Part shown: positions 3,956 to 28,109 of the stretch, piece by piece | Position numbering within the stretch: the first letter of the stretch is position 1 | Layout of the letters: every line of letters begins with the position of its first letter | Assembly (NCBI RefSeq): GCF_000328305.2 | Contig: NZ_ANPE02000178.1 | Coordinates: forward strand, 1 to 33,162 | Source: Arthrobacter crystallopoietes BAB-32 | GTDB taxonomy: Bacteria > Actinomycetota > Actinomycetes > Actinomycetales > Micrococcaceae | DNA: 33,162 nucleotides | Direction: 5' to 3' | Program-made: the position numbers and the translations under genes | The notes under the pieces: generated by a model | Databases searched by the model: none | What the model saw: the letters and a program-made list of their open reading frames with translations, nothing else | What the model was told of the DNA's origin: nothing

Positions 3956-3998
3956 AGTAGAGCCGCGCGCGAAGGGAGCCCTTCAAAGCTTGTAAATA

Positions 3999-4024
3999 TG
4001 TCAGCACAAAGGTTTGACAGGACA
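3999..4024. promoter_or_regulatory. Pair of IolR-like operator boxes between ROK kinase and iolC
   Basis: Two related boxes lie 16 bases apart. Read on the minus strand they are TGTGCTGACA (3999-4008) and TGTCCTGTCA (4015-4024). Each matches nine of ten positions of KGWCHTRACA, the motif I recall for the GntR-type inositol repressor IolR of Corynebacterium glutamicum. The second overlaps the iolC -35 element and belongs to a 13-mer repeated exactly at 18534-18546. Binding by the GntR regulator encoded in this window is inferred. Confidence 0.6.
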
Positions 4025-4042
4025 AACCCCTTGAGGCAAAGT
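4014..4042 (+). promoter_or_regulatory. Putative iolC operon promoter
   Basis: A consensus TTGACA at 4014-4019 is followed after 17 bases by CAAAGT (4037-4042), a weak -10 that keeps the A2 and T6 positions. The -35 lies inside an IolR-like box, as expected for a repressed promoter. The -10 assignment is tentative. Confidence 0.45.
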
Positions 4043-4047
4043 ATGAG

Positions 4048-4063
4048 TGTGTCTCGGCTCACA
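4048..4063. promoter_or_regulatory. CRP/GlxR-like site upstream of iolC
   Basis: TGTGTCTCGGCTCACA matches the CRP/GlxR consensus TGTGA-N6-TCACA at nine of ten defined positions. It sits just downstream of the proposed -10, where binding would repress, unless the true start of transcription lies further downstream. A similar site occurs at the ABC importer promoter. Confidence 0.5.
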
Positions 4064-4120
4064 TCACGCCGAGGAGGCGGTCGAGAAGCTCGCCCCGAAC
4101 AGAAAGGCCGACGATCTCAA

Positions 4121-5113
4121 GTGGCTCACGACTTACTTACCATGGGACGGATCAGCGTCGACATCTATCCGAATGACATCGGGGTCCGGCTGGCCGATGT
4201 TACGACATTCGGCAAATACCTGGGCGGATCGCCGTCGAACGTTGCCGTTGCGGCCGCCCGGCATGGCCGTCGGTGCGCCGTCATCACCCGGACAGGCGAA
4301 GACCCGTTCGGCGAGTACCTGCACCGGGAATTGCGGAAGTTCGGCGTCGACGACCGCTTCGTGACGGGCGTGCCGGGACTCCAGACCCCTGCGACCTTTT
4401 GCGCCATCCTCCCGCCGGATGACTTCCCCCTCTACTTCTACGGCCGTTTCCCCACCGCGCCCGACCTGCAGATTGCCGCGGACGAATTGGACCGAGCAGC
4501 CATCCGGGAAGCCGGGATTTTCTGGTCCACGGTGACCGGACTGAGCCAGGAGCCCAGCCGCTCGGCCCACGTGGCCGCGCATGAAGCCCGGCCGCGGAAC
4601 GAGTTGCTGCCCGGCCAGTTCACCATCCTGGACCTTGACTACCGTCCGATGTTCTGGGCTTCCGAGGAAGAAGCCCGCGAACAGGTGGCCGCCATCCTGC
4701 CGCACGTTACCGTCGCCATCGGCAACGACAAGGAATGCTCGGTGGCCGTCGGCGAGGGCACTCCGGATGAGCAGGCGGACCGTCTGCTGGATGCCGGTGT
4801 GGAAATCGCAGTGGTCAAGCTCGGTCCCGACGGCGTCATGGCCAAGACCCGGACGGAGCGTGTGGTGTCGGCTCCGGTTCCGGTCGAGACCTTGAACGGG
4901 CTGGGGGCCGGTGACGCCTTCGGCGGCGCCTTCTGCCACGGGCTGCTGGCCGGCTGGCCGCTCTCGGCGATCCTCGATTATGCCAATGCCTCCGGCGCCC
5001 TGGTGGCGTCGCGGGTGTCGTGTGCGGACGCGATGCCAACACCGGCGGAAGTCAATGCGCTCCTGGCCGAACGCGGGCGGTCTCTGCCCGGAACTGTGGA
5101 GGCTGTCCGATGA
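4121..5113 (+). CDS. iolC: 5-dehydro-2-deoxygluconokinase
   Basis: A 330-residue PfkB/ribokinase-family enzyme that phosphorylates 5-dehydro-2-deoxy-D-gluconate in the myo-inositol pathway. The N-terminal sugar site (FGKYLGGSPSNVAVAAAR) and the C-terminal catalytic motif LGAGDAFGGAF, with Asp265 as probable base, are intact. The opening MGRISVDIYP is characteristic of IolC. I chose GTG 4121 because the family begins at this point (AHDLLTMGR). AGAAAGG lies upstream at a longish spacing of about 13 bases. An in-frame ATG at 4043 preceded by GAGG would add 26 non-conserved residues that overlap the CRP-like site. It is the first gene of the iol operon, and its ATGA overlaps the next start. Confidence 0.93.
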   Translation: MAHDLLTMGRISVDIYPNDIGVRLADVTTFGKYLGGSPSNVAVAAARHGRRCAVITRTGEDPFGEYLHRELRKFGVDDRFVTGVPGLQTPATFCAILPPDDFPLYFYGRFPTAPDLQIAADELDRAAIREAGIFWSTVTGLSQEPSRSAHVAAHEARPRNELLPGQFTILDLDYRPMFWASEEEAREQVAAILPHVTVAIGNDKECSVAVGEGTPDEQADRLLDAGVEIAVVKLGPDGVMAKTRTERVVSAPVPVETLNGLGAGDAFGGAFCHGLLAGWPLSAILDYANASGALVASRVSCADAMPTPAEVNALLAERGRSLPGTVEAVR

Positions 5114-12478: not shown

Positions 12479-13267
12479 TCAGTCGTACGCGCCGGGAACG
12501 TTCTGATCCCAGTCGATGACCGAGCCGGTGACGACGCCGGAGCGCTCCGAGAGCAGGAACACCACGAAGTCCCCGATCTCCTCAACCTGGCCGAGCTTGC
12601 CCATCGGCTGGGAGGCGCTGGCCTTTTCCAGCCAGTCGTCGCCGGCGCCATGGAAGCGGCGTTGGACAGCGTCCTCGCCCTCGGTCGACGTCCAGCCGAT
12701 GTTCACGCCGTTGATCCGGATCCGGTCCCAGCGGTGCGCGTGAGCCGCGTTCCTGGTCAGGCCTGCAAGTCCCGCCTTGGTGGCCACATACGGGGCCAGG
12801 TACGGCTGGCCGCCGTGCGAACTCATGGTGATGATGTTGGCGATGTTGCCGGCGGCGCCGCGTTCCCGCAGATGCCGGATGGCCTGCTGCATCAGGAAGA
12901 ACGGCGCCTTCAGGTTCAGCGCCACGTGGGCGTCGAAGAGCTCCTCCGTAGTGTCCAGCATCGTCCCGCGGGTCGTCAGGCCCGCGGCATTGACCAGCGC
13001 ATCGACCCTCCCCAAGCGTTCGACGGCGGACTCCACGACGGTGCCGACCTGGACCATGTCGGTCAGGTCAGCTTTGATGAACGTGGCCTGCGTCCCGGAT
13101 GCTTCGAGCCGTTGCACCGTCTCCATCCCGTTGTCCGCGTTTCGGCCAACGACGGCGACCGCTTCGGCTTCCTGCGCGGCCGCGGCCAGCGCAATACCCG
13201 CCCCGAGCCCCTGGGTTCCGCCGCTGATCAGCAGGACCTTGCCCCGCATCAAGCCATCAAATCCCAC
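12479..13267 (-). CDS. Short-chain dehydrogenase/reductase
   Basis: A 262-residue classical SDR. The NAD(P) motif GGTQGLGAG lies at residues 16-24, the VNAAG motif at 92-96, and the catalytic set is Ser149/Ser150, Tyr160 and Lys164 (YVATK). Such enzymes oxidise or reduce secondary alcohols of sugars, polyols and similar substrates. I chose GTG 13267 because GGGAGG precedes it by about 9 bases; an internal ATG at 13249 is the alternative. Its start overlaps the end of the upstream Gfo/Idh/MocA gene by 11 bases, so it is the third gene of the dioxygenase operon. Its substrate is unknown, but context points to an oxidised cyclitol or sugar intermediate. Confidence 0.88.
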   Translation of the reverse strand: MGFDGLMRGKVLLISGGTQGLGAGIALAAAAQEAEAVAVVGRNADNGMETVQRLEASGTQATFIKADLTDMVQVGTVVESAVERLGRVDALVNAAGLTTRGTMLDTTEELFDAHVALNLKAPFFLMQQAIRHLRERGAAGNIANIITMSSHGGQPYLAPYVATKAGLAGLTRNAAHAHRWDRIRINGVNIGWTSTEGEDAVQRRFHGAGDDWLEKASASQPMGKLGQVEEIGDFVVFLLSERSGVVTGSVIDWDQNVPGAYD

Positions 13268-14351
13268 TACTGCTTACCTCCCGATTCGGTTGCTCACGTG
13301 CGGTTTCCCCGCCTGCGTGGATAAGTGCGCTGCCGACCGCTATGGTCCTGCCGGTGTCTGCCGACTCCACCGCTGCCTCGGCCAGTTCCAATGCCGCCAC
13401 ACCGTCGTCGATCCCCGGACTGGCCCAGGCACCGTCCCGGACGCGCTGCAGGAAGTGGTCCAGCTCCGCGCGGTAGGCGGCAGCATAGCGTTCCAGGAAG
13501 AACGGCTCGTAGGCGTCCGCCTGCGCGGTGCCCGCGGACGTGTAGCTGCGCACCGTCGTCGGCCTGGAGTTGCCGGCACTGAGCATCCCCTCCGCGCCGA
13601 ACGCCTCCAGCCGCTGGTCGTAGCCGTACGCGCTGTGCCGGGAGTTCGTGATGGTCACTTGCTCGCCGTCCGCGGCGGTGAGGACAACGACGGCGGAATC
13701 ATAGTCGCCGGCCGCCTGGATGTAGTCGCTGAACAGGTTGGAGCCGCGGGCCGTGACCTGCACGATGTCTGGCAGGAAGAACCGCGCCATGTCGAAATCG
13801 TGGATGGTCATGTCGCGGAAGATGCCGCCTGACGAGCGGATGTACGCCTCGGGGGCCGGCGCCGGATCCCGGCTGATGATAGTGAGCTGCTCCAGCCGCC
13901 CGATTTCTCCGGCGGCCACGCGCTGCCGGATGGACGCGAAGGAGGGATCGAACCGGCGGTTGAAGCCGACCATGACCGGGCGCGACGCGCCGGCGACGGC
14001 GGTCCGGCAGGTGCGTGCGCGGGCGAGGTCCAGATCCACGGGCTTCTCGCACAGCACCGCCAGATCGCGCTGCACTGCCGCCAGGATCAGGTCCACGTGG
14101 GTGGGCGTCGGCGAGCAGATGACCACGCCGTCCAGCCTGCCGTCCTCCAGCACCCTTTCGGCGGAGTCGGTGGCGGCGGCTCCGTACCGGGCCTCGAGCC
14201 GCCGGGCTTCTTCGACAAAGGGGTCTGCGATCCAGGCGAAGTCAACCCCGGGGTGCGCTGCCAGGTTGGCGGCGTGGACCGCGCCGATCCGGCCGGACCC
14301 GATGAGGCCCAGCCGGAGCGGGCGGCCGGAGCCGCTGGCGTCTGATGCCAC
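13257..14351 (-). CDS. Gfo/Idh/MocA-family dehydrogenase linked to the dioxygenase
   Basis: About 364 residues. The Rossmann motif LIGSGRIGAVH lies near residues 16-25, CEKPVDLD carries the catalytic lysine, and FRDMTIHDFD supplies the Asp-x3-His pair of the inositol dehydrogenase subgroup. It should oxidise a hydroxyl of a cyclitol or sugar with NAD(P). I chose GTG 14351, one base after the dioxygenase stop (TGA-C-GTG) with AGGTGGG upstream. An ATG at 14390 would overlap the dioxygenase gene by 38 bases and add 13 poorly conserved residues. It is the second gene of the dioxygenase-dehydrogenase-SDR operon. The substrate cannot be read from sequence. Confidence 0.88.
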   Translation of the reverse strand: MASDASGSGRPLRLGLIGSGRIGAVHAANLAAHPGVDFAWIADPFVEEARRLEARYGAAATDSAERVLEDGRLDGVVICSPTPTHVDLILAAVQRDLAVLCEKPVDLDLARARTCRTAVAGASRPVMVGFNRRFDPSFASIRQRVAAGEIGRLEQLTIISRDPAPAPEAYIRSSGGIFRDMTIHDFDMARFFLPDIVQVTARGSNLFSDYIQAAGDYDSAVVVLTAADGEQVTITNSRHSAYGYDQRLEAFGAEGMLSAGNSRPTTVRSYTSAGTAQADAYEPFFLERYAAAYRAELDHFLQRVRDGAWASPGIDDGVAALELAEAAVESADTGRTIAVGSALIHAGGETAREQPNREVSSSGI

Positions 14352-14352
14352 G

Positions 14353-15558
14353 TCAGCCCACCTGGGCCTGGCGGCGCTGCTGCTGGACATCCAGTTCCGT
14401 TTCGAAGGCCGCGGGGTCCATGTCTGCTGCCAACGCCCGCAGCACCAATTGGGCCTGGCTTTCCGGTGCTATGCCACCAATCGGCTGGTCTTGGTCGAGG
14501 TTGGTCGGGAACGCGTAGCCCTCGGCGGAGGCGGCTACGACGTTGCGGACGGAGCGCTCCGAGGCTCCCGCAGCCCGGCGTTCCTGCAGCACTGGATACA
14601 GCGCCTTGCACATGCTGGTGCGGTCGACGGTTTCCATCGCCCGCCCAAACGCGGAAGAGACCTGGAGGAGGTTGGCCATCCGGCGGATGCCGGCGCTGCG
14701 GTTGTGGCCTGCGCCGTGGAACAGCGCAGGGTTGAAGAAGGCGGCGTCGCCCTTCTCCAGCGGCAGCTGGACGTAGTTCTCCTCGAAGTACCGGGTGAAC
14801 TCGGGCCGGTGGAATGCAACGTAGCCGGCCGGATACTTGTGCGAGTGGGGCAGGTACAGGGTGGGGCCGGATTCGACTGGCATGTCGCAGTGCGCAACCG
14901 CCCCCTGCAGAGTCAGGGCGGGGGAGAGCAGATGGACGTGCGCCGGGTAGGACTCGGCTTCTTCCAGGCCCATGAACCCGAGATGGTAGTCGCGGTGGGC
15001 CGTTTGGGAGGCGCCACCGGGATTGACCACGTTGACCTGGGACGTGACCTGGTAGTTGGGGCCGAGCCAGGCTTCGCTGATGAGGGCCAGGATGTCATTG
15101 CCGTAGTAGTCCGCGAAGACTCGGGGTTCCGCAACGGCGAGCTTGTCCAGCGCGCCCCACACCCGATCGTTGGCGCCGGGCTTCGCGAAATGGTCGCCCG
15201 CTGCCGTCCCGGCCGCCTTCTGGGCGTCGATCAACCGGTTGAAGGCGGCGGTGGCGCGATCCACGACGGTGGTGTCGGCGAAGGCGCCCTTGAAGACCAC
15301 GATGCCGGGCCCCTCCGTGAGCGCACGGACGAGTTCGGCCTGGATGGCGCGGCGTCCGGCTGGCCCGTCCGCCCGCTCCTGCAGGCCGGGTCCGTAGATG
15401 AGGACGTTTTGTTCCACCTTGTCCGCGAAGGGGTAATCCACTTGCCGGGTTTCGGCGGACACCGTCTGCACGAAGTCCTGCAGTTGGCAATCCTCGGAGT
15501 GGAACCATTGGGCGCCGGCGTTCAAACCTACGGTGCCGTTCTGGGCGGTGATGGACAT
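14353..15558 (-). CDS. Phytanoyl-CoA dioxygenase (PhyH)-family Fe(II)/2-oxoglutarate oxygenase
   Basis: A 401-residue protein with the double-stranded beta-helix signature of PhyH-type oxygenases. His188 and Asp190 (TAHRDYH) form the HxD part of the iron triad. His281 (LFHGAGHNRS) is the likely distal ligand, with Arg287 or Arg292 placed to bind 2-oxoglutarate. The motif SGPTLYLPHSHKY before it is typical of the family. These enzymes hydroxylate or oxidatively dealkylate small molecules. At about 400 residues it is longer than most 250-300-residue members, with about 130 extra N-terminal residues. AAGGAG lies about 8 bases before the ATG. It is first in an operon with a Gfo/Idh/MocA dehydrogenase and an SDR, divergent from a LacI-type regulator and inserted within the inositol locus. 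An O-methyl or otherwise substituted inositol is a plausible substrate, by inference only. Confidence 0.85.
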   Translation of the reverse strand: MSITAQNGTVGLNAGAQWFHSEDCQLQDFVQTVSAETRQVDYPFADKVEQNVLIYGPGLQERADGPAGRRAIQAELVRALTEGPGIVVFKGAFADTTVVDRATAAFNRLIDAQKAAGTAAGDHFAKPGANDRVWGALDKLAVAEPRVFADYYGNDILALISEAWLGPNYQVTSQVNVVNPGGASQTAHRDYHLGFMGLEEAESYPAHVHLLSPALTLQGAVAHCDMPVESGPTLYLPHSHKYPAGYVAFHRPEFTRYFEENYVQLPLEKGDAAFFNPALFHGAGHNRSAGIRRMANLLQVSSAFGRAMETVDRTSMCKALYPVLQERRAAGASERSVRNVVAASAEGYAFPTNLDQDQPIGGIAPESQAQLVLRALAADMDPAAFETELDVQQQRRQAQVG

Positions 15559-15774: not shown

Positions 15775-16800
15775 GTGGCACACCAGTTCACCGTTCGCGA
15801 AATTGCACAGCAGGCAGGCGTCAGCGATGCCACCGTGGATCGGGTCCTGCACGGCCGCCCGGGGGTCCGCCCGTCGACGGCAGGCCAGGTGCGGCGCGCG
15901 ATGCAGGAACTCGAGGCGCAACGGCACCAGCTGGAGTTGACCGGGCGCCGCTTCCTCATCGATGTGGTGACCGACGCGCCCGCCCGGTTCAACAACGCCG
16001 TGCGGGCGGCGCTGGAGCACGAGCTCCCGCTGCTGCGCCCGGCGGTCTTCCGGGCCCGTTTCCACCAGCACGAGCGCTGGACCGCGGGTGAGTGCGTCGT
16101 TGAACTGGACCGGATTGCGTCCCTCGGCAGCCACGGAGTAATCCTCAAGGCGCCCGACGCACCGGAGATGGCCGCCGCCGTCGACCGTTTATTGGCTCGC
16201 GGGGTACCGGTGGTGACGCTGGCGACGGATGTTCCGGTCAGCCGCCGGCTCGCCTATGTGGGGATCGACAACCGTTCCGCGGGGGCGACGGCGGCGTACC
16301 TCATCTCGCAGTGGCTGGGTAGCCGGCCGGGAGGCGTTGCAGTGACGGTGAGCAACGACTCGTTCCGCGGCGAGGAGGAGCGCGAAATGGGCTTCCGCGC
16401 CGCGATGCGAAGGCTGGATCCGGACCGGCCGGTGAGCTACCTGGGCGGATCGGACGGCCTCGACGACAGTGCGCGGACGATCATGGCGGCCGCGCTGGCC
16501 GCAGATCCCGCGCTGGCCGGCGTGTATTCCATCGGCGGCGGCAATCGGGGACTGCTGGCCGCCTTCGAGGAGGCGGGCCGGGAGCCAGCCGTGTTCGTCG
16601 GGCATGACCTGAATCCGGACAACGTCGCCCTGCTGCGTGCCGGCCGGATCAATGCGCTGTTGCACCATGACCTCCACCAGGACCTTAACCGCTGCTGCCG
16701 GATCCTGATGTGCCATCACGGCGCGCTGCCGGAGGTGCCGGCCACCGAGGAGTCGAAGATCGACGTCGTTACCCCGCACAACATTCCGGCCGGGCTGTAG
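15775..16800 (+). CDS. LacI-family transcriptional regulator (dioxygenase module)
   Basis: A 341-residue repressor or activator. The helix-turn-helix lies at residues 5-50 (TVREIAQQAGVSDATVDRVLHG), followed by a periplasmic-binding-protein-like sensor domain (about residues 60-335; GSHGVILKAPDAPEMAAAVDRLL, YVGIDNRSAGATAAYL, VFVGHDLNPDNVALL). The usual hinge-helix motif YxPNxxAR is missing: the linker reads LEAQRHQLELTGRR, so operator binding may differ from classical LacI proteins. The GTG start has GAAGGAGG about 6 bases upstream. It is divergent from the PhyH-dehydrogenase-SDR operon and probably controls it in response to that module's sugar or cyclitol substrate. Confidence 0.9.
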   Translation: MAHQFTVREIAQQAGVSDATVDRVLHGRPGVRPSTAGQVRRAMQELEAQRHQLELTGRRFLIDVVTDAPARFNNAVRAALEHELPLLRPAVFRARFHQHERWTAGECVVELDRIASLGSHGVILKAPDAPEMAAAVDRLLARGVPVVTLATDVPVSRRLAYVGIDNRSAGATAAYLISQWLGSRPGGVAVTVSNDSFRGEEEREMGFRAAMRRLDPDRPVSYLGGSDGLDDSARTIMAAALAADPALAGVYSIGGGNRGLLAAFEEAGREPAVFVGHDLNPDNVALLRAGRINALLHHDLHQDLNRCCRILMCHHGALPEVPATEESKIDVVTPHNIPAGL

Positions 16801-16813
16801 CAGCTCTGCCGGA

Positions 16814-17716
16814 TCAGTCCGTGAAGGGCAGCCGCGGGTCCACCTGCTGGCCTTCCCACGTACGGCGGATCCAGCCGTGGTGCGGGTCGTCGCTGATCAG
16901 CCATTCCCGCACGCGGCCCGGGCCGGCCATCACGTTCAGGTAGTAGAGGTCGTAGCCGGGGGCAGCCATCGCGGGTCCGTGCCAGCCGTAGGGAACCAGG
17001 ACCACGTCGCCAGTGCGGACCTCGGCGTTGACATCGATGGGCCGTTCGTCGGAGGCATAGACCCTTGCGTACCCGATCGGGTCCGCCTCATGGGGAGCAG
17101 GCGAGTCCTTGGCTAGGCGGGTTTCGAAGTAGTAGATCTCCTCGAGGCTGCTCTCGCCTTCCCTCTCCTCATCATGCTTGTGCGGGGGATAGGAGGACCA
17201 GTTGCCAGCGGGTGTGATGACCTCGCAGACGATGAAGCGGTCCGCCTCGAGCGCGGCCGGAGTGCCGAAATTGTGCACTTGCCGGGAGCAGATGCCCGAG
17301 CCGCGCAGTTCCACCGGGGTCTCCTCGGCCGGGATGAGCCGGACCGGATAGCTCGCTTTGGCCGGCGCCAAGGCCACGGCGACGCGGCCGCCGTCCCGCG
17401 AGGAGATCGAGAGGGCGGTCTCGATTCCGGAGTACAGCACGTCTGAGGGGCCGGCGAAGACGTTGGCGCGCCCGCGGAGCGGGTAGTCCGTGCCGTCTAC
17501 CGACACTGTGAAGGCACCCTCTAGGGGAACAACGATCCGCTCCTCTGCCTCGGCGGCCAGTTTGATGGCCTCGCCGGGTGCCAGTTCGGCGACTTTGAGC
17601 CCGGTGTGGGCCCAACCCGCGACCTGGGTGGCACTGTCGGCGGCTCCTAGCGATACTTGCCACGCGCCGTCGTTGGCGGAACCGAGCGGATAGACCCAGG
17701 TGGGTGTTTCGGGCAT
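16814..17716 (-). CDS. iolB: 5-deoxy-glucuronate isomerase
   Basis: A 300-residue bicupin that isomerises 5-deoxyglucuronate, made by IolD, to 5-dehydro-2-deoxygluconate, the IolC substrate. The metal site is visible in the second cupin: His179 and His181 (PPHKHDEE), Glu192 or Glu193 (LEEIYYF) and His246 (VPYGWHGPA), followed by DLYYLNVMAGP. AGAAAGG lies upstream of the ATG. It fills the one step missing from the plus-strand iol operon, 4 kb away and on the opposite strand. It lies 18 bases downstream of the GntR regulator gene, so the two are probably co-transcribed. Its 3' end converges with the LacI-type gene, leaving only 13 bases and no room for a terminator. Confidence 0.93.
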   Translation of the reverse strand: MPETPTWVYPLGSANDGAWQVSLGAADSATQVAGWAHTGLKVAELAPGEAIKLAAEAEERIVVPLEGAFTVSVDGTDYPLRGRANVFAGPSDVLYSGIETALSISSRDGGRVAVALAPAKASYPVRLIPAEETPVELRGSGICSRQVHNFGTPAALEADRFIVCEVITPAGNWSSYPPHKHDEEREGESSLEEIYYFETRLAKDSPAPHEADPIGYARVYASDERPIDVNAEVRTGDVVLVPYGWHGPAMAAPGYDLYYLNVMAGPGRVREWLISDDPHHGWIRRTWEGQQVDPRLPFTD

Positions 17717-17734: not shown

Positions 17735-18475
17735 TTAACGCTGGACCAACGTCATTTCGAAGCTGTAGGAGTCCGCACGGTAGACGTGGTGGCCGGTCTC
17801 GACGTTGCGGCCGGCATCGTCGACGGCGGTGCGTTCCATGGTCACCAGTGCTGCACCCGTGTCGGTTTCCAGCAGGCTGGCCTGGCGGCTGTCGGCGATG
17901 GTCGCGCCGATCCGCTGGGTGGCCAGCCGGAAGTTTACCCCGGCGTCCCGCAGGATCTGGTAGAGGCCAAGCTTGCGGAGTCCGTCCTCGGTGATCTCGG
18001 TGATGTCGTCCCGCACCCAGTTCTCCATCAGGGCCAGGGGCTTTCCCCCGACACTGCGCAGCCGCGTGAAGTGGTAGACATTCACTCCAGCGGGAAGGTC
18101 AAGCGCCTTCGCGATCTCCGGGTCGGCGACACCGTGCCGGAACTCGAGGACTTCGGTGGTCGGCTTCTGGCCCGTACGCTTGAGGTCGTCGAAGAGGCTC
18201 GAGAGCTCCAAATGGCGCCGCACCTGGTTCGAGACCACCTGGGTGCCCACGCCGCGCTTGCGTACGAGCAGGCCCGAGCGGACGAGCTCGTCCATCGCCT
18301 TCCGCATTGTGGGCCTGGACAGCTTCAGTTTGCTGGCCAACTCGATCTCGTTGTCTAGGCGGGAGCCGGATTCGAGTGCCCCGCTGTGGATCGCTGCTTC
18401 GATTCCCTGGACCACCTGGTGGTAGAGGGGGACCGGCGACGACCGGTCGATGGGGATGTTGAGCTCTGTACTCAT
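17735..18475 (-). CDS. iolR: GntR-family (HutC/UTRA) regulator, probable inositol repressor
   Basis: A 246-residue regulator. The winged helix-turn-helix spans about residues 16-82 (VPLYHQVVQGIEAAIHSG, LSRPTMRKAMDELVRSGLLVRKRGVGT). A UTRA ligand-binding domain follows, about residues 100-240 (YHFTRLRSVGGKPLALMENWV, TMERTAVDDAGRNVETGHHVYRADSY). Context makes it the inositol-responsive repressor: it adjoins iolB and faces the importer genes. Boxes matching the known GntR-type IolR motif lie in front of it, in front of the importer and at iolC. The ligand is probably inositol or a pathway intermediate, by inference. One box lies about 60 bases upstream of its own ATG, so autoregulation is likely. 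Confidence 0.85.
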   Translation of the reverse strand: MSTELNIPIDRSSPVPLYHQVVQGIEAAIHSGALESGSRLDNEIELASKLKLSRPTMRKAMDELVRSGLLVRKRGVGTQVVSNQVRRHLELSSLFDDLKRTGQKPTTEVLEFRHGVADPEIAKALDLPAGVNVYHFTRLRSVGGKPLALMENWVRDDITEITEDGLRKLGLYQILRDAGVNFRLATQRIGATIADSRQASLLETDTGAALVTMERTAVDDAGRNVETGHHVYRADSYSFEMTLVQR

Positions 18476-18533
18476 GGTCCTCGTCCACCTTCTTCCTGGT
18501 GCTGAATCCCTATGGATGAGCGGGGCTGCCGTA

Positions 18534-18546
18534 TTGACAGGACAAA
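18534..18546. promoter_or_regulatory. IolR-like box upstream of the GntR regulator gene
   Basis: TTGACAGGACAAA is an exact copy of the 13-mer at 4014-4026 in front of iolC. On the minus strand it contains TGTCCTGTCA, nine of ten positions of the IolR motif. It lies 59 bases upstream of the GntR start and about 230 bases before the importer lipoprotein gene, so it most likely controls the regulator gene itself. Confidence 0.6.
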
Positions 18547-18643
18547 TAGTCCTGCGATCGTATCAGTGGCTCCCGGGACTTCCGCTTGTTCCCGGGCCGC
18601 TGCGGTAACACCGAACCGGGACTTGTCTTCGTGAATGTGAATA

Positions 18644-18653
18644 TGTCCTGACA
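18644..18653. promoter_or_regulatory. Full-match IolR-like box at the ABC importer promoter
   Basis: TGTCCTGACA fits all ten positions of KGWCHTRACA. It is embedded in the palindrome ATGTC-CT-GACAT and lies five bases before a TTGACT -35 candidate. This placement suggests repression of the importer by the adjacent GntR protein. Confidence 0.6.
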
Positions 18654-18658
18654 TTCTA

Positions 18659-18688
18659 TTGACTTTTGTGATTCCTGTCACCCATTCT
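18659..18688 (+). promoter_or_regulatory. Putative promoter of the ABC importer operon
   Basis: TTGACT (18659-18664) and CATTCT (18683-18688) are 18 bases apart; the -10 keeps A2, T3 and T6. A long leader of about 80 bases would precede the GTG at 18775. An 11-base inverted repeat, CTTGTGACAAG (18687-18697), lies at the expected transcription start. Confidence 0.4.
18667..18682. promoter_or_regulatory. CRP/GlxR-like site at the ABC importer promoter
   Basis: TGTGATTCCTGTCACC matches TGTGA-N6-TCACA at nine of ten defined positions. It lies between the candidate -35 and -10 elements, so either it represses or the promoter is placed differently. It parallels the site at 4048-4063 in front of iolC and suggests shared cAMP-type catabolite control. 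Confidence 0.5.
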
Positions 18689-18774
18689 TGTGACAAGGCG
18701 CTGCGCCGGCAGGAGTGCCGGACAGGCCATCGGCCTTCGGGGAAGGCCGAATCACGAAGACGAAGGAGAACCTC

Positions 18775-19773
18775 GTGTCACACAAGCTTTCCTGGCGGAA
18801 ACTGGCAGCCGCGGCAGTCATGGTTCCGGCACTCGCACTCACAGCCTGTTCCTCTTCCGGTGGCCGTGCCCCCGAAGCGAACGATGGCGGTGGCGGAGGC
18901 GCCGTCGCCGACACCGAACGGATGAGCGTCGCGCTGATTACCCATGCTGCTCCCGGCGACACGTTCTGGGACATCGTCCGCAAGGGCGCGGAAGAGGCAT
19001 CCGCCAAGGACAACGTTGAACTCCAGTACCTGTCCGATCCGGAAGGCGGGCGCCAGGCCCAGCTGATCGAACAGGCCGTCGACCAGGGCGTGGACGGGAT
19101 CGCAGTCACACTGGCCAAGCCTGACGCGCTCGCCTCCGCCCTGAAGAAGGCGACGGATGCAGGAATCCCGGTCGTCAGCCTCAACGCCGGCGAAGACCGT
19201 TTCTCGGAGCTCGGAGCCTTCACGCACTTTGGTTCCAACGAGAAGCTGGCCGGCGAGGCGGTCGGCGAACGCCTGGCTTCGGAGGGCTACGAGCACCCCA
19301 TCTGCGTCATCCAGGAGCAGGGCCACGTTGGGCTGGAGAATCGCTGCGCCGGCGTGAAGGCCAAAGTGCCGGACACCGAGATCCTGTACGTGCAGGGCAC
19401 GGATATGACCCAGGTCGAGTCTACGGTGACGGCTAAACTGCAGGCCACGGCGGCGGCCGACGTCGTAATTGGTTTGGGTGCTCCGTTTACGCTGACCATC
19501 CTCAAGGCCGTCGGCAACGCCGGCAGCGACGCGAAGGTCGCCTCCTTCGACATGAATGCCGAGCTCGCCCAGAAGATTGTCGACGGCGATGTCATCTTCA
19601 CCGTCGACCAGCAGCCTTGGCTCCAGGGCTACGGGGCGGTGGACGCGCTGTGGCAGAACCAGCGCGGCGGCTTCGAGATCGGCGGCGGCCAGCCGGTCCT
19701 GACCGGTCCGACCATCGTGGACCAGGAGAGCGCCCAGCAGGTGCTCGAGTTCGCTGAACAAGGCGTCCGCTAA
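18775..19773 (+). CDS. Sugar ABC transporter substrate-binding lipoprotein
   Basis: A 332-residue lipoprotein of the ribose/galactose-type periplasmic-binding family. The signal peptide ends in the lipobox LTAC with Cys25 as the lipidated residue, followed by a Ser/Gly-rich linker. The mature part has two lobes: ALITHAAPGDTFWDIVRKGAEEA, QLIEQAVDQGVDGIAVTLAKP and DAGIPVVSLNAGED in the first, DVVIGLGAPFTLTILKAVG and TVDQQPWLQGYGAVDAL in the second. I chose GTG 18775 because GAAGGAG precedes it by 7 bases; an upstream ATG frame is not conserved. It captures sugar or cyclitol outside the membrane for the following permease and ATPase. Inositol is the likely ligand from regulation and context; this is not provable from sequence. 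Confidence 0.9.
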   Translation: MSHKLSWRKLAAAAVMVPALALTACSSSGGRAPEANDGGGGGAVADTERMSVALITHAAPGDTFWDIVRKGAEEASAKDNVELQYLSDPEGGRQAQLIEQAVDQGVDGIAVTLAKPDALASALKKATDAGIPVVSLNAGEDRFSELGAFTHFGSNEKLAGEAVGERLASEGYEHPICVIQEQGHVGLENRCAGVKAKVPDTEILYVQGTDMTQVESTVTAKLQATAAADVVIGLGAPFTLTILKAVGNAGSDAKVASFDMNAELAQKIVDGDVIFTVDQQPWLQGYGAVDALWQNQRGGFEIGGGQPVLTGPTIVDQESAQQVLEFAEQGVR

Positions 19774-19835: not shown

Positions 19836-20876
19836 ATGACCATTGCAGCAACAGCTCCCGTGACTGATGAACGGGTTGCCAAGAAAAGCACCGTAAGCAA
19901 GCTCCTGGGCCGTCCCGAGATCGGCGCGCTGGTCGGAGCCGTGGCCCTCTTTGTCTTCTTCGCTGCGGTTGCGCCCGTCTTCCTGCAGCCCGGCTCCATC
20001 GCCACGGTGCTGTACGGAGCGTCCACCATCGGGATCATGGCCGTTGGCGTTTCCTTGCTGATGATCGGCGGAGAATTCGACCTTTCCACCGGCGTCGCGG
20101 TGATCAGTTCGGCCCTGATGGCTTCGCTGTTCAGCTGGTACTTCTCGATGAATGTCTGGGTCGGAGTGCTCTTGGCCCTGGTCATGTCGCTGGGAGTGGG
20201 CTTCATCAACGGCTGGATCCTGATCAAGACCAAGCTGCCCTCCTTCATCGTCACGCTCGCCACGTTCCTGATGCTGACCGGCCTGAACCTCGGCCTGACC
20301 CGTGCCATCGGCGGCAGCGTTTCAACGCCGTCCGTCTCCAACATGGACGGTTTCGAATCCGCCCGGGCCATCTTCGCCTCCTCGGTGAACATTGCCGGCG
20401 TGGACGTGAAGATCACGGTGTTCATCTGGCTCGGGATGGTCGCGGTTGCGTCGTGGGTGCTGCTGCGGACCAAGATCGGCAACTGGATCTTCGCTTCGGG
20501 CGGCGACGCCAACGCGGCAAGAGCAGTGGGTGTCCCGGTGGTCAAGACCAAGATCGGCCTCTTCATGGCCGTCGGCTTCTGCGCCTGGGTGCTGGGCATG
20601 CACAATCTGTTCGCGTTCGCCACGGTGCAGTCGGGTGAAGGCATCGGCAACGAGTTCCTCTACATCATCGCTGCAGTGATCGGCGGCTGCCTGCTCACCG
20701 GCGGCTACGGCTCGGCCATCGGCGGCGCGATCGGCGCCTTCATCTTCGGCATGGCCAACAAAGGCATCGTGTACGCCGAATGGAACCCGGACTGGTTCAA
20801 GTTCTTCCTGGGCCTGATGCTCCTGCTGGCGACCATCGTCAACCTCGTCGTCAAGCGCCGGGCCGAGCAGAAGTAA
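19836..20876 (+). CDS. Ribose-type ABC transporter permease
   Basis: A 346-residue membrane protein of the RbsC/BPD_transp_2 class with eight to ten hydrophobic helices. Characteristic segments are MAVGVSLLMIGGEFDLSTGVAVISSALMA, the cytoplasmic loop ASGGDANAARAVGVPVVKTKIGLFM and GGCLLTGGYGSAIGGAIGAFIFGMANKGI. It forms the membrane channel, probably as a homodimer, of the importer encoded with the adjacent lipoprotein and ATPase. AAGGAG lies about 8 bases before the ATG. It is separated from the lipoprotein gene by a strong hairpin and from the ATPase gene by 15 bases. Confidence 0.92.
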   Translation: MTIAATAPVTDERVAKKSTVSKLLGRPEIGALVGAVALFVFFAAVAPVFLQPGSIATVLYGASTIGIMAVGVSLLMIGGEFDLSTGVAVISSALMASLFSWYFSMNVWVGVLLALVMSLGVGFINGWILIKTKLPSFIVTLATFLMLTGLNLGLTRAIGGSVSTPSVSNMDGFESARAIFASSVNIAGVDVKITVFIWLGMVAVASWVLLRTKIGNWIFASGGDANAARAVGVPVVKTKIGLFMAVGFCAWVLGMHNLFAFATVQSGEGIGNEFLYIIAAVIGGCLLTGGYGSAIGGAIGAFIFGMANKGIVYAEWNPDWFKFFLGLMLLLATIVNLVVKRRAEQK

Positions 20877-20891
20877 CGGAGACGTAAGGAA

Positions 20892-21806
20892 ATGGCCATC
20901 ATGGAAAACGACCAAATCACCCAGGAAACCCTGCTCCAGGGTGAGACCGACCCGCTGACCTCCACGCCGGTGCACCTGCTGCACCTGGACAAGGTCGGCA
21001 AGCACTACGGCAACATCATCGCGCTGCGGGATGTCACCATGGCCGTCGACGCCGGAAGGGTCACCTGCGTGCTCGGCGACAACGGTGCCGGCAAGTCCAC
21101 GCTGATCAAGATCATTGCCGGCCTGCACCAGCACGACGAGGGCACCTTCACCATCCTCGGCGAGGAACGCAAGCTGTCCTCTCCGCGGGAGGCGCTCGAC
21201 GCTGGCATTGCTGCCGTCTACCAAGACCTCGCCGTCGTCTCGCTCATGCCGATCTGGCGCAACTTCTTCCTCGGCTCCGAGCTGACGACGGGTTTCGGGC
21301 CCTTCAAGCGGCTCGACGTCGACCGGATGAAAGAGATCACGAAGAAAGAACTGCAGGACATGGGCATCGACCTGCGCGATGTGGAGCAGCCGATCGGCCA
21401 GCTCTCCGGCGGTGAGCGCCAATGTGTCGCGATCGCCCGCGCGGTGCACTTCGGAGCCAAGGTCCTGATCCTCGACGAGCCGACGGCTGCGCTCGGCGTC
21501 AAGCAGTCCGGCGTCGTGCTGCGCTACATTCTCCAGGCCCGCGACCGCGGCCTCGGCGTCATCTTCATCACCCACAACCCGCACCACGCCTTCCCGGTGG
21601 GCGACCGGTTCCTGCTGCTCAAGCGCGGCAAGTCGATCGGCTACTACAACAAGAAGGACATCACCCTCGAGGAACTCACCGCGCAGATGGCCGGTGGCGC
21701 CGAGCTGGCCGAGCTGGCGCACGAGCTTGAGGCTCTCGGCGGCCATACGGACGTTGTCGCGGAAGTGGAAGCGGAAGTAGGCGCGACGGAAGCCCGCCGC
21801 ACCTAG
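20892..21806 (+). CDS. Single-domain sugar ABC transporter ATPase
   Basis: A 304-residue ATPase with one ABC domain. Walker A is GDNGAGKST (residues 62-70), the Q-loop lies in VYQDLAVV, the signature is LSGGE (171-175), Walker B is VLILDEP (191-197) and the switch His is His228 (ITHNPHH). Ribose-type importers usually carry a tandem ATPase of about 500 residues (RbsA). This one has a single domain, like FrcA of rhizobial fructose importers, so it should work as a homodimer. The C-terminal tail is rich in Glu and Ala. An ATG at 20901 has better spacing to AAGGA and would shorten the protein by three residues. It is the third gene of the importer operon. Confidence 0.92.
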
Positions 21807-21844: not shown

Positions 21845-22846
21845 GTGACCATACGGACGGGAGTGGTCGGTGCGGGCATCATGGGCGCCGACCACGCTGA
21901 GAACCTGGCCAGGAACGTGGGCGGGAGCACGCTGGCCTGCGTGGCGGACATTGACGCAGAGCGTGCCAAGGCGGTGGCCTCGGAACTGGGCGCGCGGGCG
22001 GTAACCGATCCGCTGGAACTCATCGAGGACGACGGAATCGACGCGGTGGTTATCGCCTCGCACGACACGACCCATCCGGAGCTGGTCCAGGCTTGCCTGG
22101 CCGCGAGCAAGCCCGTGCTGTGCGAAAAGCCGCTGGCCACAACCGCGGATGAAGCCCGGCGGCTTGTCGAAGCCGAGCGTGCAGTAGTGGACCAGCTTGG
22201 CCGGTCCCTCATCAGCGTGGGGTTCATGCGCCGCTTCGATCCCGGCCACGTGGAGCTCCGCCGGTCCCTGGCCGCGGGGGAACTGGGACGGCCCCTGTTG
22301 CTGCACGGCATCAGCCGAAATGTCTCGGCCGCGCCCGGCGCCACCAACGAATCCGCCATCACCAACTCGGCCATCCATGAACTGGACTCCTTTCCCTGGC
22401 TGCTGGACAGTCCCATCGAGGAAGTTTCCTGGGTGCCCGGCATCCCCACCTCGTCCGAGGCGGCGGCCGGGCTCCAAGACCCTGCCTTCATGATGATCCG
22501 CCTGCGCTCAGGCGTGCTGGCCACCTTGGAGCTGTTCCTCAATGCCGGTCACGGCTATTCCACCCAGTGCGAAGTGGTCGGGGAGCGGGGCACCGGCCGG
22601 CTGGTAGAGCCGGCCGGGGCATCCTACAGCCTGGACCGAAAAAACTACGTGTCCTTCCCGGCCGACTGGCGGCCGCGGTTTGCGGCGGCCTACCGGCGCC
22701 AGCTGCAGGCCTGGATCCGCTCCCTGCAGGAGGGGACGCTGTCGCCCATGGCCTCTGCCGAAGACGGCTTGCGCGCCTCCCTCGCGGCCGAAGCGATGGT
22801 GCGTTCGATGCATAACGGCGGCGCCTTCACGCAGGTGGCGGCATGA
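21845..22846 (+). CDS. Gfo/Idh/MocA-family dehydrogenase, IolG-like with Asp-to-Asn active-site change
   Basis: A 333-residue oxidoreductase closely resembling IolG in layout: Rossmann motif GAGIMGADHAEN, CEKPLATT with Lys95, and TNSAIHELD with His178. The residue that is Asp173 in the IolG of this window is Asn174 here, which may alter substrate orientation or rate. The GTG start has GAAGGAGG five bases upstream; an ATG two bases earlier is out of frame and hits a stop at once. It lies 38 bases after the ATPase gene and its stop overlaps the next start (ATGA), so it probably belongs to the importer operon. It likely oxidises an inositol isomer or related sugar brought in by the transporter. 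Confidence 0.9.
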   Translation: MTIRTGVVGAGIMGADHAENLARNVGGSTLACVADIDAERAKAVASELGARAVTDPLELIEDDGIDAVVIASHDTTHPELVQACLAASKPVLCEKPLATTADEARRLVEAERAVVDQLGRSLISVGFMRRFDPGHVELRRSLAAGELGRPLLLHGISRNVSAAPGATNESAITNSAIHELDSFPWLLDSPIEEVSWVPGIPTSSEAAAGLQDPAFMMIRLRSGVLATLELFLNAGHGYSTQCEVVGERGTGRLVEPAGASYSLDRKNYVSFPADWRPRFAAAYRRQLQAWIRSLQEGTLSPMASAEDGLRASLAAEAMVRSMHNGGAFTQVAA

Positions 22847-23916
22847 GGGCCGGGTTGCCCGACCGCCTTCCGGAGAGCCGCGTTCCCGACTCATGGGACG
22901 CCCCGCCGCTGCGCTGGGGGATCGCCGGACCAGGGTGGATCGCGGAGCGGTTCGCCGCCTCGCTGCAGCAGCACACCCGGCAGGTCCTGGCGGCTGTCGG
23001 CTCCCGGTCGACGGACCGGTCCGCCGGGTTTGCCGGCCGGCTGGGAATCCCGGCGGCATATGGCAGCTACCGCGAGCTCGCCGAGGCGCCGGACGTGGAC
23101 ATTATCTACGTGGCGACCCCTCACAACCACCACCACAGGGTGGCCCTCGAAGCCCTAGAGGCAGGCAAGCACGTGCTGGTGGAAAAGCCCATCTGCATCA
23201 ATGCCGAGCAGGCCGAGGAGATTGCCGCGCTTGCGGAGTCCAAGGGGCTGCTCGCGACGGAGGCGCTCTGGACGTTCTTCCTGCCAAAGTTCGACGTCGT
23301 GCGGCAGCTTTTGGACGAAGGGTACCTGGGGCAGGTGGTTTCCGTGATGGCCGAATACGGCGAGCACTTCGAGCCCGGCCACCGGATTTTCGACGGCTCA
23401 CTGGCGGGCGGCCCCTTGCTGGACCTCGGCACTTATCCGCTCGCGTTAATTACCGCCTTGCTCGGCGACCCGGAAGAAGTCCGCGCTCTCGGGACCAGCC
23501 ATCCGTCCGGCGTGAACGGACAGATTTCGGCCGTGATGCGCTTCCCGGACGGGGCGCACGCGGTGACCAATACCAACCTCTACGGGTTCACCCCGACGGT
23601 TGCCACCGTCGTCGGGACGCAGGCAACGCTGACCATCGACGGTCCGTTCAACTTCCCTGGCGGCTTCAGCGTGAAAAGCCATGACGGCCGGGAGCTGCGC
23701 TACGACGCCGAACCCGGCGAGCATCTCGAAGGCCTGCACTACCAGGCGGCGGCCGTGGCGCGTGCCCTAGCCGCCGGCCGGCGCGAAGTCGTGGAGCGGC
23801 CGCTGGCGGAGTCCATTCGCTGCCTGCGGCTGGCGGACGAGCTGCGCCGGCAGATCGGGATCCGCTTTCCGGACGAAGCACCCCAGGCGTCAGCCGCCAC
23901 CCTACTCAACCAATGA
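22843..23916 (+). CDS. Gfo/Idh/MocA-family oxidoreductase, GFOR/dihydrodiol-dehydrogenase-like subgroup
   Basis: A 357-residue protein of a different branch from the neighbouring IolG-like enzymes. The Rossmann motif is unusual (GIAGPGWIAERF), VEKPICIN carries the lysine, and the active-site segment is GGPLLDLGTYPLAL. That segment has the Asp-x3-Tyr arrangement of glucose-fructose oxidoreductase and dimeric dihydrodiol dehydrogenase instead of Asp-x3-His. It probably uses NAD(P) on a sugar or 1,5-anhydro-type substrate; the exact reaction is unknown. A proline-rich N-terminal extension of about 22 residues precedes the domain. Starts and stops overlap on both sides (ATGA), so it is translationally coupled within the dehydrogenase series. 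Confidence 0.88.
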   Translation: MRAGLPDRLPESRVPDSWDAPPLRWGIAGPGWIAERFAASLQQHTRQVLAAVGSRSTDRSAGFAGRLGIPAAYGSYRELAEAPDVDIIYVATPHNHHHRVALEALEAGKHVLVEKPICINAEQAEEIAALAESKGLLATEALWTFFLPKFDVVRQLLDEGYLGQVVSVMAEYGEHFEPGHRIFDGSLAGGPLLDLGTYPLALITALLGDPEEVRALGTSHPSGVNGQISAVMRFPDGAHAVTNTNLYGFTPTVATVVGTQATLTIDGPFNFPGGFSVKSHDGRELRYDAEPGEHLEGLHYQAAAVARALAAGRREVVERPLAESIRCLRLADELRRQIGIRFPDEAPQASAATLLNQ

Positions 23917-23924
23917 AGGAATCC

Positions 23925-24947
23925 ATGAAGCACCTGACCCTGGGCCTCGTCGGCGTCGGCCGGATCGGCAGCATGCACGCGCACAACATCATGGCCTTGA
24001 AGCCCGGGCTGGAAGAGCGCGACATCCAACTCCGCCTGCTCGTTACCGACGTAGCGGCAGAGTATGCACGCTCGGTGTCCGATTCGCTGGGCGCCGAGTT
24101 TGTGCCGTCGGTCGACGTGATGCTCGACGGGGGTGTCGACGGCATGGTGGTCGCCACCGGCACACAGACCCATCCCGAGCTGATCCGCGCCGGAGTGGAC
24201 GCTGGCGTGCCGGTCTTCTGCGAGAAGCCGGTCGCCGGGAACGTGGCCGATTCGCTGCCGGTGCTGGACTATATCCGTGAAGGCGGCGGGGTGGTCCAGA
24301 TCGGACACCAGCGGCGCTTCGACGCCGGCTACCTGGAGGCCAAGCGCAGCTTCGATGCGGGGGAGCTCGGCTGGATCCACTCCCTGCGCGCCGTCACAGG
24401 GGACATGTTCCCGCCGCCGGTCGAATTCCTCGCCACCTCGGGCGGGCTCTTCCGCGACTGCTCGGTGCACGATTTCGACATCCTGCGGTGGCTGACCGGC
24501 CGGGAGATCGTGGAGGTCTACGCCCGCGGCTCCAACAACGGTGATCCAGCGATCGGCGAGACAGGAGACGTGGACACGGCGCTCGCCGTCGTTACTTTCG
24601 ACGACGGTACGGTCGGCACCGTATCCGCCACCCGCTACAACGGCGCCGGGCACGACGTGCGGCTGGAGATCCAGGGGTCGAAGTCCTCGGTGATGGTGGG
24701 GCTGGACGACAAGGCTGCTCTGCGGTCCACCGAGGTTGGCGTGTCGTTCCCCCATGGCGGGGCCCACAAGACGTTCGCCGAGCGGTTCGATGCCGCCTAC
24801 CGCGCCGAGATGCTGGCGTTCCTGGAGCTTATCCAGGGGGAGCGGGAGAATCCCTGCACGCCCGAGGACGCGGTGGCGGCGTCCAAGGTCGCGGACGCCG
24901 CCCAGCTGTCCCTGGAGACGGGCGTTCCGGTCAAAGTGGAGCTCTGA
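23925..24947 (+). CDS. Gfo/Idh/MocA-family inositol dehydrogenase-like protein
   Basis: A 340-residue oxidoreductase. The Rossmann motif is LVGVGRIGSMHAHN, CEKPVAGN carries the catalytic lysine, and FRDCSVHDFD supplies Asp and His as in inositol dehydrogenases. The best start is ATG 23925, preceded by AAGGA; an ATG at 23913 overlaps the previous stop but has no ribosome site. It is the last gene of the series that begins with the importer. Downstream it converges on the hydroxypyruvate-isomerase-like gene across a 39-base GC-rich repeat. The similar FRD-x-x-x-HDFD motif in the dioxygenase-linked enzyme suggests those two are closer to each other than to IolG. The substrate is likely a cyclitol or sugar. 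Confidence 0.9.
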   Translation: MKHLTLGLVGVGRIGSMHAHNIMALKPGLEERDIQLRLLVTDVAAEYARSVSDSLGAEFVPSVDVMLDGGVDGMVVATGTQTHPELIRAGVDAGVPVFCEKPVAGNVADSLPVLDYIREGGGVVQIGHQRRFDAGYLEAKRSFDAGELGWIHSLRAVTGDMFPPPVEFLATSGGLFRDCSVHDFDILRWLTGREIVEVYARGSNNGDPAIGETGDVDTALAVVTFDDGTVGTVSATRYNGAGHDVRLEIQGSKSSVMVGLDDKAALRSTEVGVSFPHGGAHKTFAERFDAAYRAEMLAFLELIQGERENPCTPEDAVAASKVADAAQLSLETGVPVKVEL

Positions 24948-27095: not shown

Positions 27096-28109
27096 ATGGA
27101 GCGTGATCCGAAAACCGGAACGGAAGCGGGCCGCCGGCCGACGCTGGCTGACGTCGCCGCCGCCGCCGGAGTGTCGCGCGCCCTAGCGTCGATCGTGATG
27201 CGCGGGGCTTCAGGAGCCAGTCCCGCGACCCGCGAACGCGTGCTCGAAACGGCCCGGCAGCTCGGCTATCGCCCGGATTCCCGCGCGCGGCTTCTGCGGA
27301 GCAGCCGGACGCGTCTGCTGGGCATTACCTTCATGGTTGCCGAGCCCTTCCACGGCGACATTGTCGAGTCGATTTACGCTGCCGCGGAGGACGCCGGCTT
27401 TGAGGTCTTGCTGAGCGCCGTGGGCGGCCGACGACAGGAAGACCGGGCGGTGGAGACCTTGCTCGACGCCGGAGTCGAGGCCGCCTTGATGATCTCTCCG
27501 TCGTCCACGCCCGAAGCGCTGGCGGTGCTCGCCCGGCAGGTGCCCGTGATCAGCCTGCTCAGCGCCGCAGCTGTACCGGGCGTTGATGCCGTGCGCAGCG
27601 ACGACGCCGAAGGAATCCGTACCGCCGTGGAGCACCTGCTGTCGCTCGGGCACCGGGATATCGCCCACGTGGACGGCGGGTCCGCCGTCGCCTCGGCCGA
27701 ACGGCGGGCCGGCTACGAAGAGAGCATGCGGCGGGCCGGCTTGGCCGAGTATATCCGGGTAGTCCCCGGCGGTCCGCACGAAGCCGAAGGTATCGCTGCG
27801 GCGGGCAAGCTGTTCGCCGACCGCAAGCCCTCCGCCGTCCTGGCTTTCAACGACCGCTGCGCGCTCGGGATCCTCGAGGCCTCCTGGCGTGCGGGGCTGA
27901 AGGTTCCGGATGATCTTTCGGTGGTCGGCTACGACGACAGCCAGCTGGCCCGGCTCGACCACGTCCGGCTCACGACAGTGAGCCAAGATGCGGCAGGGCT
28001 CGCGGAAGCTGCCGTGGGCTGTGCCGCTGCACGGATCCGAACTGAGGAGCCCGGCGAACTGGTGCTGCAGCCGCGCTTGGTTGTCCGCTCGACCACGGGG
28101 CCCGCATAG
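27096..28109 (+). CDS. LacI-family transcriptional regulator (dehydrogenase/isomerase operon)
   Basis: A 337-residue classical LacI-type regulator. The helix-turn-helix lies at about residues 16-35 (TLADVAAAAGVSRALASIVMRG), the hinge motif is LGYRPDSRARLLRSSRT, and the sensor domain follows (GITFMVAEPFHGDIVESIYAAAEDAG, LGHRDIAHVDG, AVLAFNDRCALGILEASWRAGLKVPDDLSVVGYDD). Unlike the other LacI-type protein in this window, its hinge is intact. It is divergent from the dehydrogenase/Hyi operon, and two identical palindromes lie between them. It probably represses that operon and itself until a sugar or cyclitol binds. GAGGACGG precedes the ATG. No clear terminator follows. Confidence 0.93.
   Translation: MERDPKTGTEAGRRPTLADVAAAAGVSRALASIVMRGASGASPATRERVLETARQLGYRPDSRARLLRSSRTRLLGITFMVAEPFHGDIVESIYAAAEDAGFEVLLSAVGGRRQEDRAVETLLDAGVEAALMISPSSTPEALAVLARQVPVISLLSAAAVPGVDAVRSDDAEGIRTAVEHLLSLGHRDIAHVDGGSAVASAERRAGYEESMRRAGLAEYIRVVPGGPHEAEGIAAAGKLFADRKPSAVLAFNDRCALGILEASWRAGLKVPDDLSVVGYDDSQLARLDHVRLTTVSQDAAGLAEAAVGCAAARIRTEEPGELVLQPRLVVRSTTGPA

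Follow-up and report, generated by a model that had tools for sequence, protein, structure and literature searches.

A predicted GntR regulon for myo-inositol uptake and catabolism around the gntR/importer intergenic region of Arthrobacter crystallopoietes BAB-32

Repressors of the HutC subfamily of GntR regulators, such as DasR and YvoA, recognize short palindromic operators. In Streptomyces coelicolor, SCO6974 and SCO6256 are reportedly GntR regulators of myo-inositol catabolism. Repressor control of inositol uptake and breakdown is already known as a general mechanism. One study links SCO6974 to the control of myo-inositol genes (PMC6295645). In Corynebacterium glutamicum, IolR represses the transporter gene iolT1, and myo-inositol relieves this repression (excerpts of PMC8634428). 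IolR is described as a GntR-type inositol repressor for which negative autoregulation has been proposed (excerpts of PMC8634428 and PMC12298647). For Arthrobacter, no paper on inositol regulation was found among the matches listed from the open-licence literature.

The window, by which we mean the whole 33,162-nt stretch of A. crystallopoietes BAB-32 analyzed here, contains a myo-inositol locus according to profile searches of its genes. The catabolic operon begins with iolC (4133..5113, + strand), which scores over the NCBIfam iolC cut-off, and continues with a gene that has a Pfam Cgl0159 match, iolD, mmsA, an iolE-like gene, and an iolG-like gene. The iolD and mmsA products are over their NCBIfam cut-offs, and the iolE and iolG models are below theirs. 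On the - strand, gntR (17735..18475) encodes the proposed repressor of the regulon, and iolB (16814..17716; NCBIfam TIGR04378, 8.1e-81, over cut-off) lies directly 3' of it. Divergent from gntR, an importer operon on the + strand encodes the substrate-binding protein of an inositol-type ABC importer (18775..19773), a permease (19836..20876; NCBIfam sugar ABC permease matches, all below cut-offs), and an ATPase (20892..21806), followed 3' by three inositol-dehydrogenase-like genes of the IolG type (21845..24947; NCBIfam, all below cut-offs). A gap of approximately 300 bp separates gntR from the importer operon and contains the sites at 18534-18682. We consider it highly probable, jointly with the explanation as a whole, that this stretch is the divergent control region of a myo-inositol regulon.

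Other features of the window were recorded alongside. Only one ABC domain was found in the 304-aa importer ATPase (Pfam ABC_tran, 1.7e-27, in one stretch; NCBIfam); ATPases of such importers are typically two-domain proteins of about 500 aa. Three minus-strand genes (12479-15558) lie between the catabolic operon and a gene for a LacI-family protein (15775-16800); their products are an SDR dehydrogenase, a GFO/IDH/MocA oxidoreductase, and a PhyH-type dioxygenase. A second LacI-type regulator is encoded at 27096-28109, to the right of the dehydrogenase genes.

The importer's binding protein in the window matches 4ru1_A with an E value of 8e-86 in a sequence search. Its predicted model (mean pLDDT 78, residues 1-43 unreliable) aligns with 4ru1 with Z 38.1 and rmsd 1.9 over 286 residues at 48% identity; the next structure has Z 30.6. 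4ru1 is called a verified myo-inositol transporter in the excerpted text of PMC10747050, and the closeness of the two proteins points to an ABC importer of the myo-inositol type in the window. The importer missed the cut-off of the rhizopine importer model NF052284 (171.7 bits vs. 420).

The GntR protein combines an N-terminal GntR helix-turn-helix (Pfam PF00392, 8.8e-15) with a C-terminal UTRA domain (PF07702, 8.1e-33), both over cut-off, which is the HutC-type architecture. It fell below the NCBIfam equivalog cut-offs for PhnF (124.8 bits vs. 156.8 required) and HutC (117 bits vs. 220 required). Its best solved match is 2ra5, which we take to be SCO6256, over the full length (E 9.5e-67); 2ra5 and 2p19 are the nearest solved chains. 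The gene is linked to the iol cluster, as expected of an IolR-type repressor, with iolB adjoining and iolC, iolD, and mmsA within the window. We group the protein, as a predicted member, with the GntR repressors of inositol genes of the IolR/SCO6974 type.

A sequence-only reading of this DNA had reported a 13-mer common to the iolC and gntR/importer regions, and TTGACAGGACAAA does occur exactly at 4014-4026 and 18534-18546, both on the + strand. Allowing up to two mismatches, the window still has only these 2 matches; dinucleotide shuffling predicts 0.18, and two matches were reached in 2 of 100 shuffled sequences. TGTCCTGNCA has three exact matches, at 4015-4024 (-), 18535-18544 (-), and 18644-18653 (+). 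With one mismatch it has 7 matches vs. 6.8 by chance, and this 10-mer alone is weak evidence. A genome scan with TGTCCTGNCA had been proposed as a way of listing all targets; we ran it and obtained 45 matches vs. 21 for the reversed control, so as a target list it discriminates poorly. Genome-wide, TGTMCTRWCA gave 14 matches, the same number as its control. From these comparisons, short motifs fail to define the regulon.

Eleven of the TGTMCTRWCA matches are outside the window. By ORF layout, four of these are inside long ORFs, one (L116) is in a stretch that looks coding by eye, and the remaining six are L111, L113, L114, L117, L118, and L119. Pfam searches of six proteins flanking L111, L113, L114, and L117 (four matched) revealed no recognized inositol gene. 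Match L111, located on contig C52 of the same genome, was found through its TGATAGTACA; positions 1487-1525 of that locus, which separate a gene of the enolase superfamily from an aldo/keto reductase gene, contain a 15-nt inverted repeat (93% complementary, arms 9 nt apart), and this repeat is probably the operator of another regulator. In the window, no inverted repeat of at least 10 nt was found at 3956-4132, and two weak inverted-repeat pairs (71% and 77% complementary) were found at 18476-18775.

TTGACA is the -35 consensus, and the shared 13-mer and motif could be chance or promoter-consensus matches without regulatory meaning. The chance-level count of one-mismatch TGTCCTGNCA sites in the window and the control-level count of TGTMCTRWCA in the genome agree with that reading. 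It is contradicted by conservation, position, and specificity across relatives, and we give it next to no probability. Because the background of short motifs is high, our case rests on conservation.

For this comparison, the best 80 of 182 GntR relatives were kept (74-94% identical), with up to 10 kb on either side; the nearest named ones are from Arthrobacter mangrovi, Arthrobacter sp. SF27, and VKM Ac-2550 (GntR 91-94% identical). TGTMCTRNCA was present upstream of gntR in 73 of 80 loci, and the regions preceding the binding-protein gene and iolC had it in 56 of 59 and 10 of 10 cases, respectively; the gntR and importer upstream windows overlap where the genes are adjacent, so 73 and 56 are not fully separate counts. 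Upstream of operon-internal genes it was found at iolB in 1/78 and IolG2 in 1/14 and at none of iolD (0/23), iolE (0/45), mmsA (0/36), the Cgl0159-like gene (0/18), the permease (0/56), the ATPase (0/54), and ORF11343 (0/12). The reversed motif, used as a control, was found at none of the three promoters, once at iolD, twice at the permease, and at none of the other genes. These counts leave out three queries: IolG1, which was out of frame (13 upstream regions, 0 sites), and ORF12777 and ORF13738, which are opposite minus-strand genes.

The gntR operator TGTCCTGTCA (18535..18544, - strand) is the core of the second 13-mer copy. It is just 3' of a putative gntR -10 box, TACGAT (18557..18562, - strand), which was assigned by eye from relatives; by eye, relatives have TATTAT, TACTAT, or TACCAT. 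In the relatives listed, too, the site is immediately 3' of a likely gntR -10 box. TGATAGGACA is present in 63 of 81 gntR upstream regions, and the window, which is one of the 81, has TGACAGGACA in its place. An operator just 3' of the -10 box is in a position that suits an autorepressor, and 18535-18544 is likely the autoregulation site of gntR. The window operator is also part of a local inverted repeat, CAGGAC-AAATA-GTCCTG (18538-18554), that by eye is absent from the listed relatives.

The importer operator TGTCCTGACA (18644..18653, + strand) is 5 bp upstream of a putative -35 box, TTGACT (18659..18664, + strand), and a putative -10 box, CATTCT (18683..18688, + strand), follows after an 18-bp spacer. 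In all 60 importer promoters, including that of the window, TGTnnnnACA is followed by N5 and then by TTGACA (46) or TTGACT (14); CATGAT at 17 bp is present in 28 of 60. The operator is TGTCAGGACA in 40 promoters, TGTCCTGACA in 8, another variant that keeps TGTC in 7, and degenerate, with TGTG or TGTA, in 5 (TGTGTGGACA, TGTGTAGACA, and TGTATGGACA). TGTCCTGACA is the core of TGTCAGGACA reversed in the same place, and a core found in both orientations at one place is expected for a dimer site. A match to the IolR motif, which we take to be KGWCHTRACA, had been claimed at 18644-18653 and is present there: TGTCCTGACA fits the motif, and the gntR and iolC operators of the window are each one position off it. 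KGWCHTRACA occurs in 39 of 81 gntR regions (1.15 by shuffling), 22 of 22 distant importer promoters (0.25 by shuffling), and 0 of 12 iolC regions.

Within the importer -35/-10 spacer, the CRP-like palindrome TGTGATTCCTGTCACC (18667..18682, + strand) is present as previously noted and is the sole TGTGA-N6-TCAC site, or its reverse, in the window (about 0.1 expected, mononucleotide shuffling). Of the 60 importer promoters, 50 conserve GTGA-N6-TCAC, a palindrome of the CRP/GlxR type, at an offset of 9 or 10 from the -35 box; shuffling gives a rate of 0.00017. The genome encodes a CRP homologue close to mycobacterial CRP; its best match is 3d0s (E 6.4e-82), and 4cyd and 3r6s, presumably GlxR, also match. 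A protein bound between the -35 and -10 boxes should block polymerase, so the location of the site inside the core promoter suggests that a CRP-type protein would repress there. Alternatively, the palindrome may be the site of another regulator or a mere constraint on promoter sequence. The spacer is not a usual position for CRP to act from, the palindrome is missing from 10 of 60 importer promoters, and the iolC counterpart has another position and is present in only 19 of 63 regions. We regard this alternative as unlikely, though worth keeping in mind, in view of a CRP-type palindrome far above chance in the 50 promoters and the close CRP homologue in the genome.

Upstream of iolC there are two operators. 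Operator 1, TGTCAGCACA (3999..4008, + strand), is 5 bp upstream of a putative -35 box, TTGACA (4014..4019, + strand), assigned from conservation in IolC upstream regions, and operator 2, TGACAGGACA (4015..4024, + strand), overlaps this box and is the core of the first 13-mer copy. The putative -10 box, CAAAGT (4037..4042, + strand), is at 17-bp spacing; 20 of 63 regions have CAAAGT and 19 of 63 have CAGAGT. Upstream regions were taken from 76 of 78 IolC matches, leaving out one at a contig end and one partial match. Operator 1-N5-TTGAC was present in 60 of 76 by script and in 2 more by eye, and TTGACnGGACA, the operator on the -35 box, was present in 51 of 76. By script, 63 of 76 had one or both; by eye, the other 13 comprise five with a missed site (three at 4-bp spacing and two too near the stretch end), six that follow the end of another gene, and two site-less cases, one a second IolC copy and the other the IolC of a genome without a GntR gene.

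These arrangements change how the repeated elements should be read. The two 13-mer copies are not equivalent: the one at 18534 is the gntR operator, and the one at 4014 is the second iolC operator plus the -35 box. For the operator half of the pair of site types that the importer and iolC promoters were proposed to share, the true counterparts are 18644-18653 and 3999-4008, both exactly 5 bp upstream of TTGAC. The CRP-like half of the pair is well conserved at the importer and weak at iolC, where TGTGTCTCGGCTCACA (4048..4063, + strand) lies near the presumed transcription start; GTG-N8-CAC at the matching offset is present in 19 of 63 iolC promoters (shuffle rate 0.010 anywhere) and in 9 of 11 of a smaller first set (offset 35 or 36).

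The composite of operator and -35 box, operator-N4..6-TTGAC, is found at 3999 and 18644 and nowhere else in the window (0.04 expected, mononucleotide shuffling). The exact composite TGTCNNNACA-N5-TTGAC, 20 bases long with 12 fixed, has 2 matches in the 4.35-Mb assembly of this strain, at the importer and at iolC, so it finds both structural promoters and nothing else. One mismatch adds one further match, compared to 4 for the reversed control.

In 197 genomes of the window's family, the GntR gene (E 1e-60) and the IolC gene (E 1e-70) were each found in 76: 75 genomes have both, one has only the first, one has only the second, and 120 have neither. The exact composite is present in 64 of 76 genomes with the GntR gene (108 matches) and in 11 of 121 without it (11 matches, a low background across the family), leaving 12 of the former without the composite. 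These counts are not independent, since the 197 genomes are related and include species also represented among the 80 named loci. The reversed composite gave 16 matches in genomes with the GntR gene and 15 in those without (31 in 197 genomes). In six genomes of one genus (g135), two composites are separated by approximately 1.3 kb and lie at a distance of 4 to 6 kb from gntR, which may reflect a duplication of the importer promoter or of the first importer gene.

The LacI-family protein encoded at 15775-16800 is a candidate for reading these sites in place of GntR, which would then do something else. Its gene belongs to the cluster and is at the same locus in three of the loci compared, and the protein carries a Peripla_BP_4 ligand domain. 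Its gene (E 1e-50) is found in 15 of 197 family genomes, compared to a composite in 64 of 76 genomes with the GntR gene, and the operator next to gntR points to autoregulation by GntR. We consider the LacI reading highly improbable. The LacI gene is patchy in distribution and has stops inside it in 2 of the 15 genomes, both from one genus.

At the class level, a relative of GntR reaches E 1e-50 or better in 91 of 296 genomes. We examined 47 gntR upstream regions from outside the family, which are part of the listed matches: 27 of 30 loci (the strain's own genome and two family members were left out) and 20 chosen stretches. The site is present in 37 of them (2.6% by shuffling) and absent from 10; operator-N4..6-TTGAC is present in 20 (0.02% by shuffling) and absent from 27, so the layout extends to other families of the class. 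In five loci gntR and iolC are divergently oriented, and the operator lies in the interval separating them. A perfect palindrome, TGTCTAGACA or TGTCCGGACA, is found in some distant gntR regions, which would suit binding by a dimer.

The spacing between operator and -35 box is strict. It is N5 in 60 of 60 importer promoters; in the 76 IolC regions it is N5 in 62 and N4 in 3 (script and eye), and in the 20 distant composites, for which only N4 to N6 was allowed, it is N5 in 14, N6 in 5, and N4 in 1. If the boxes are right, the operator is near -46, a position that suits an activator. GntR could then be an activator or a dual regulator that aids polymerase at the importer and iolC but acts negatively on gntR. 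Repression agrees with the second iolC operator, which covers the -35 box, and the fixed spacing can also be explained by shared descent. SCO6974 is said, by the title of the paper on it, to be a repressor of inositol genes. Among known relatives acting on inositol genes, IolR is likewise a repressor (excerpts of PMC8634428), and we judge activation by GntR very improbable.

Plain blocking leaves the strict -35 spacing unexplained; shared descent is the simplest reason for it, and contact between GntR and polymerase is possible. In a stronger version of this idea, GntR and polymerase would share one composite, TGTCnnnACA-N5-TTGAC, with the operator phase-locked to the -35 box. The GACA of TTGACA, 11 bp or about one helical turn from the GACA of the operator, could possibly act as an extra half-site. 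The window importer has TTGACT, like 14 of 60 importer promoters in all, which makes this half-site imperfect there and phase-locking less probable; we consider it improbable. If true, control would depend on the two proteins touching or competing at a fixed helical phase, instead of on simple road-blocking, and with the CRP site in the spacer, two regulators would be stacked within the importer core promoter.

Repression by GntR remains the reading we prefer. That uptake and catabolism form one regulon governed by this protein was the main claim of the sequence-only reading, and it is supported by the conserved operators at three promoters, the co-occurrence of GntR and IolC, the association of the composite with the GntR gene, and an importer of inositol type. 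The GntR protein most likely controls its own promoter, the importer promoter, and the iolC promoter, and we hold the explanation as a whole, an inositol regulon with a GntR repressor at three promoters, with high confidence. A GntR dimer would bind TGTCnnGACA-type operators at each: just 3' of the -10 box at its own promoter, resulting in autorepression; directly upstream of the -35 box at the importer; and at iolC on an operator pair, one upstream of the -35 box and one on it. In the absence of inositol, bound GntR would deny RNA polymerase access; inositol, or an early product of its breakdown, would release GntR, turning on uptake and catabolism together. A CRP/GlxR-type protein probably adds catabolite control, at the importer as a repressor. 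GntR binding, the identity of the inducer, the promoter boxes, and whether GntR and CRP act negatively or positively are inferences; release by inositol would follow the known behavior of IolR in C. glutamicum (excerpts of PMC8634428 and PMC12298647).

The analysis gives the inositol regulon of this family a testable definition, consisting of three promoters, one operator type, and one composite signature. It also connects an ABC importer with an IolR-type GntR regulator, and the CRP-like site in the importer core promoter predicts catabolite repression there.

Compared to known systems, the importer resembles that of Acidothermus most closely: 4ru1 shares the fold of the window binding protein and is its clear best match. 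The Caulobacter protein 4irx, likewise from a myo-inositol ABC importer, has this fold too, but at 21% identity, with Z 29.4 and rmsd 2.5 over 276 residues, it is as distant as ribose- and glucose-binding proteins. Like the window GntR, DasR and YvoA have a GntR helix-turn-helix with a UTRA domain in about 246 aa, but DasR/YvoA-type structures match it more weakly than 2ra5 does (E approximately 1e-24 to 1e-26), and these repressors act on other sugars through another operator core. SCO6974 and SCO6256 are reportedly GntR regulators of myo-inositol catabolic genes. IolR, as presented in the excerpts, is similarly a GntR-type regulator tied to inositol genes, as proposed here for the window GntR; the uptake target differs, being the symporter gene iolT1 for IolR and, as predicted here, an ABC importer for the GntR protein of A. 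crystallopoietes.
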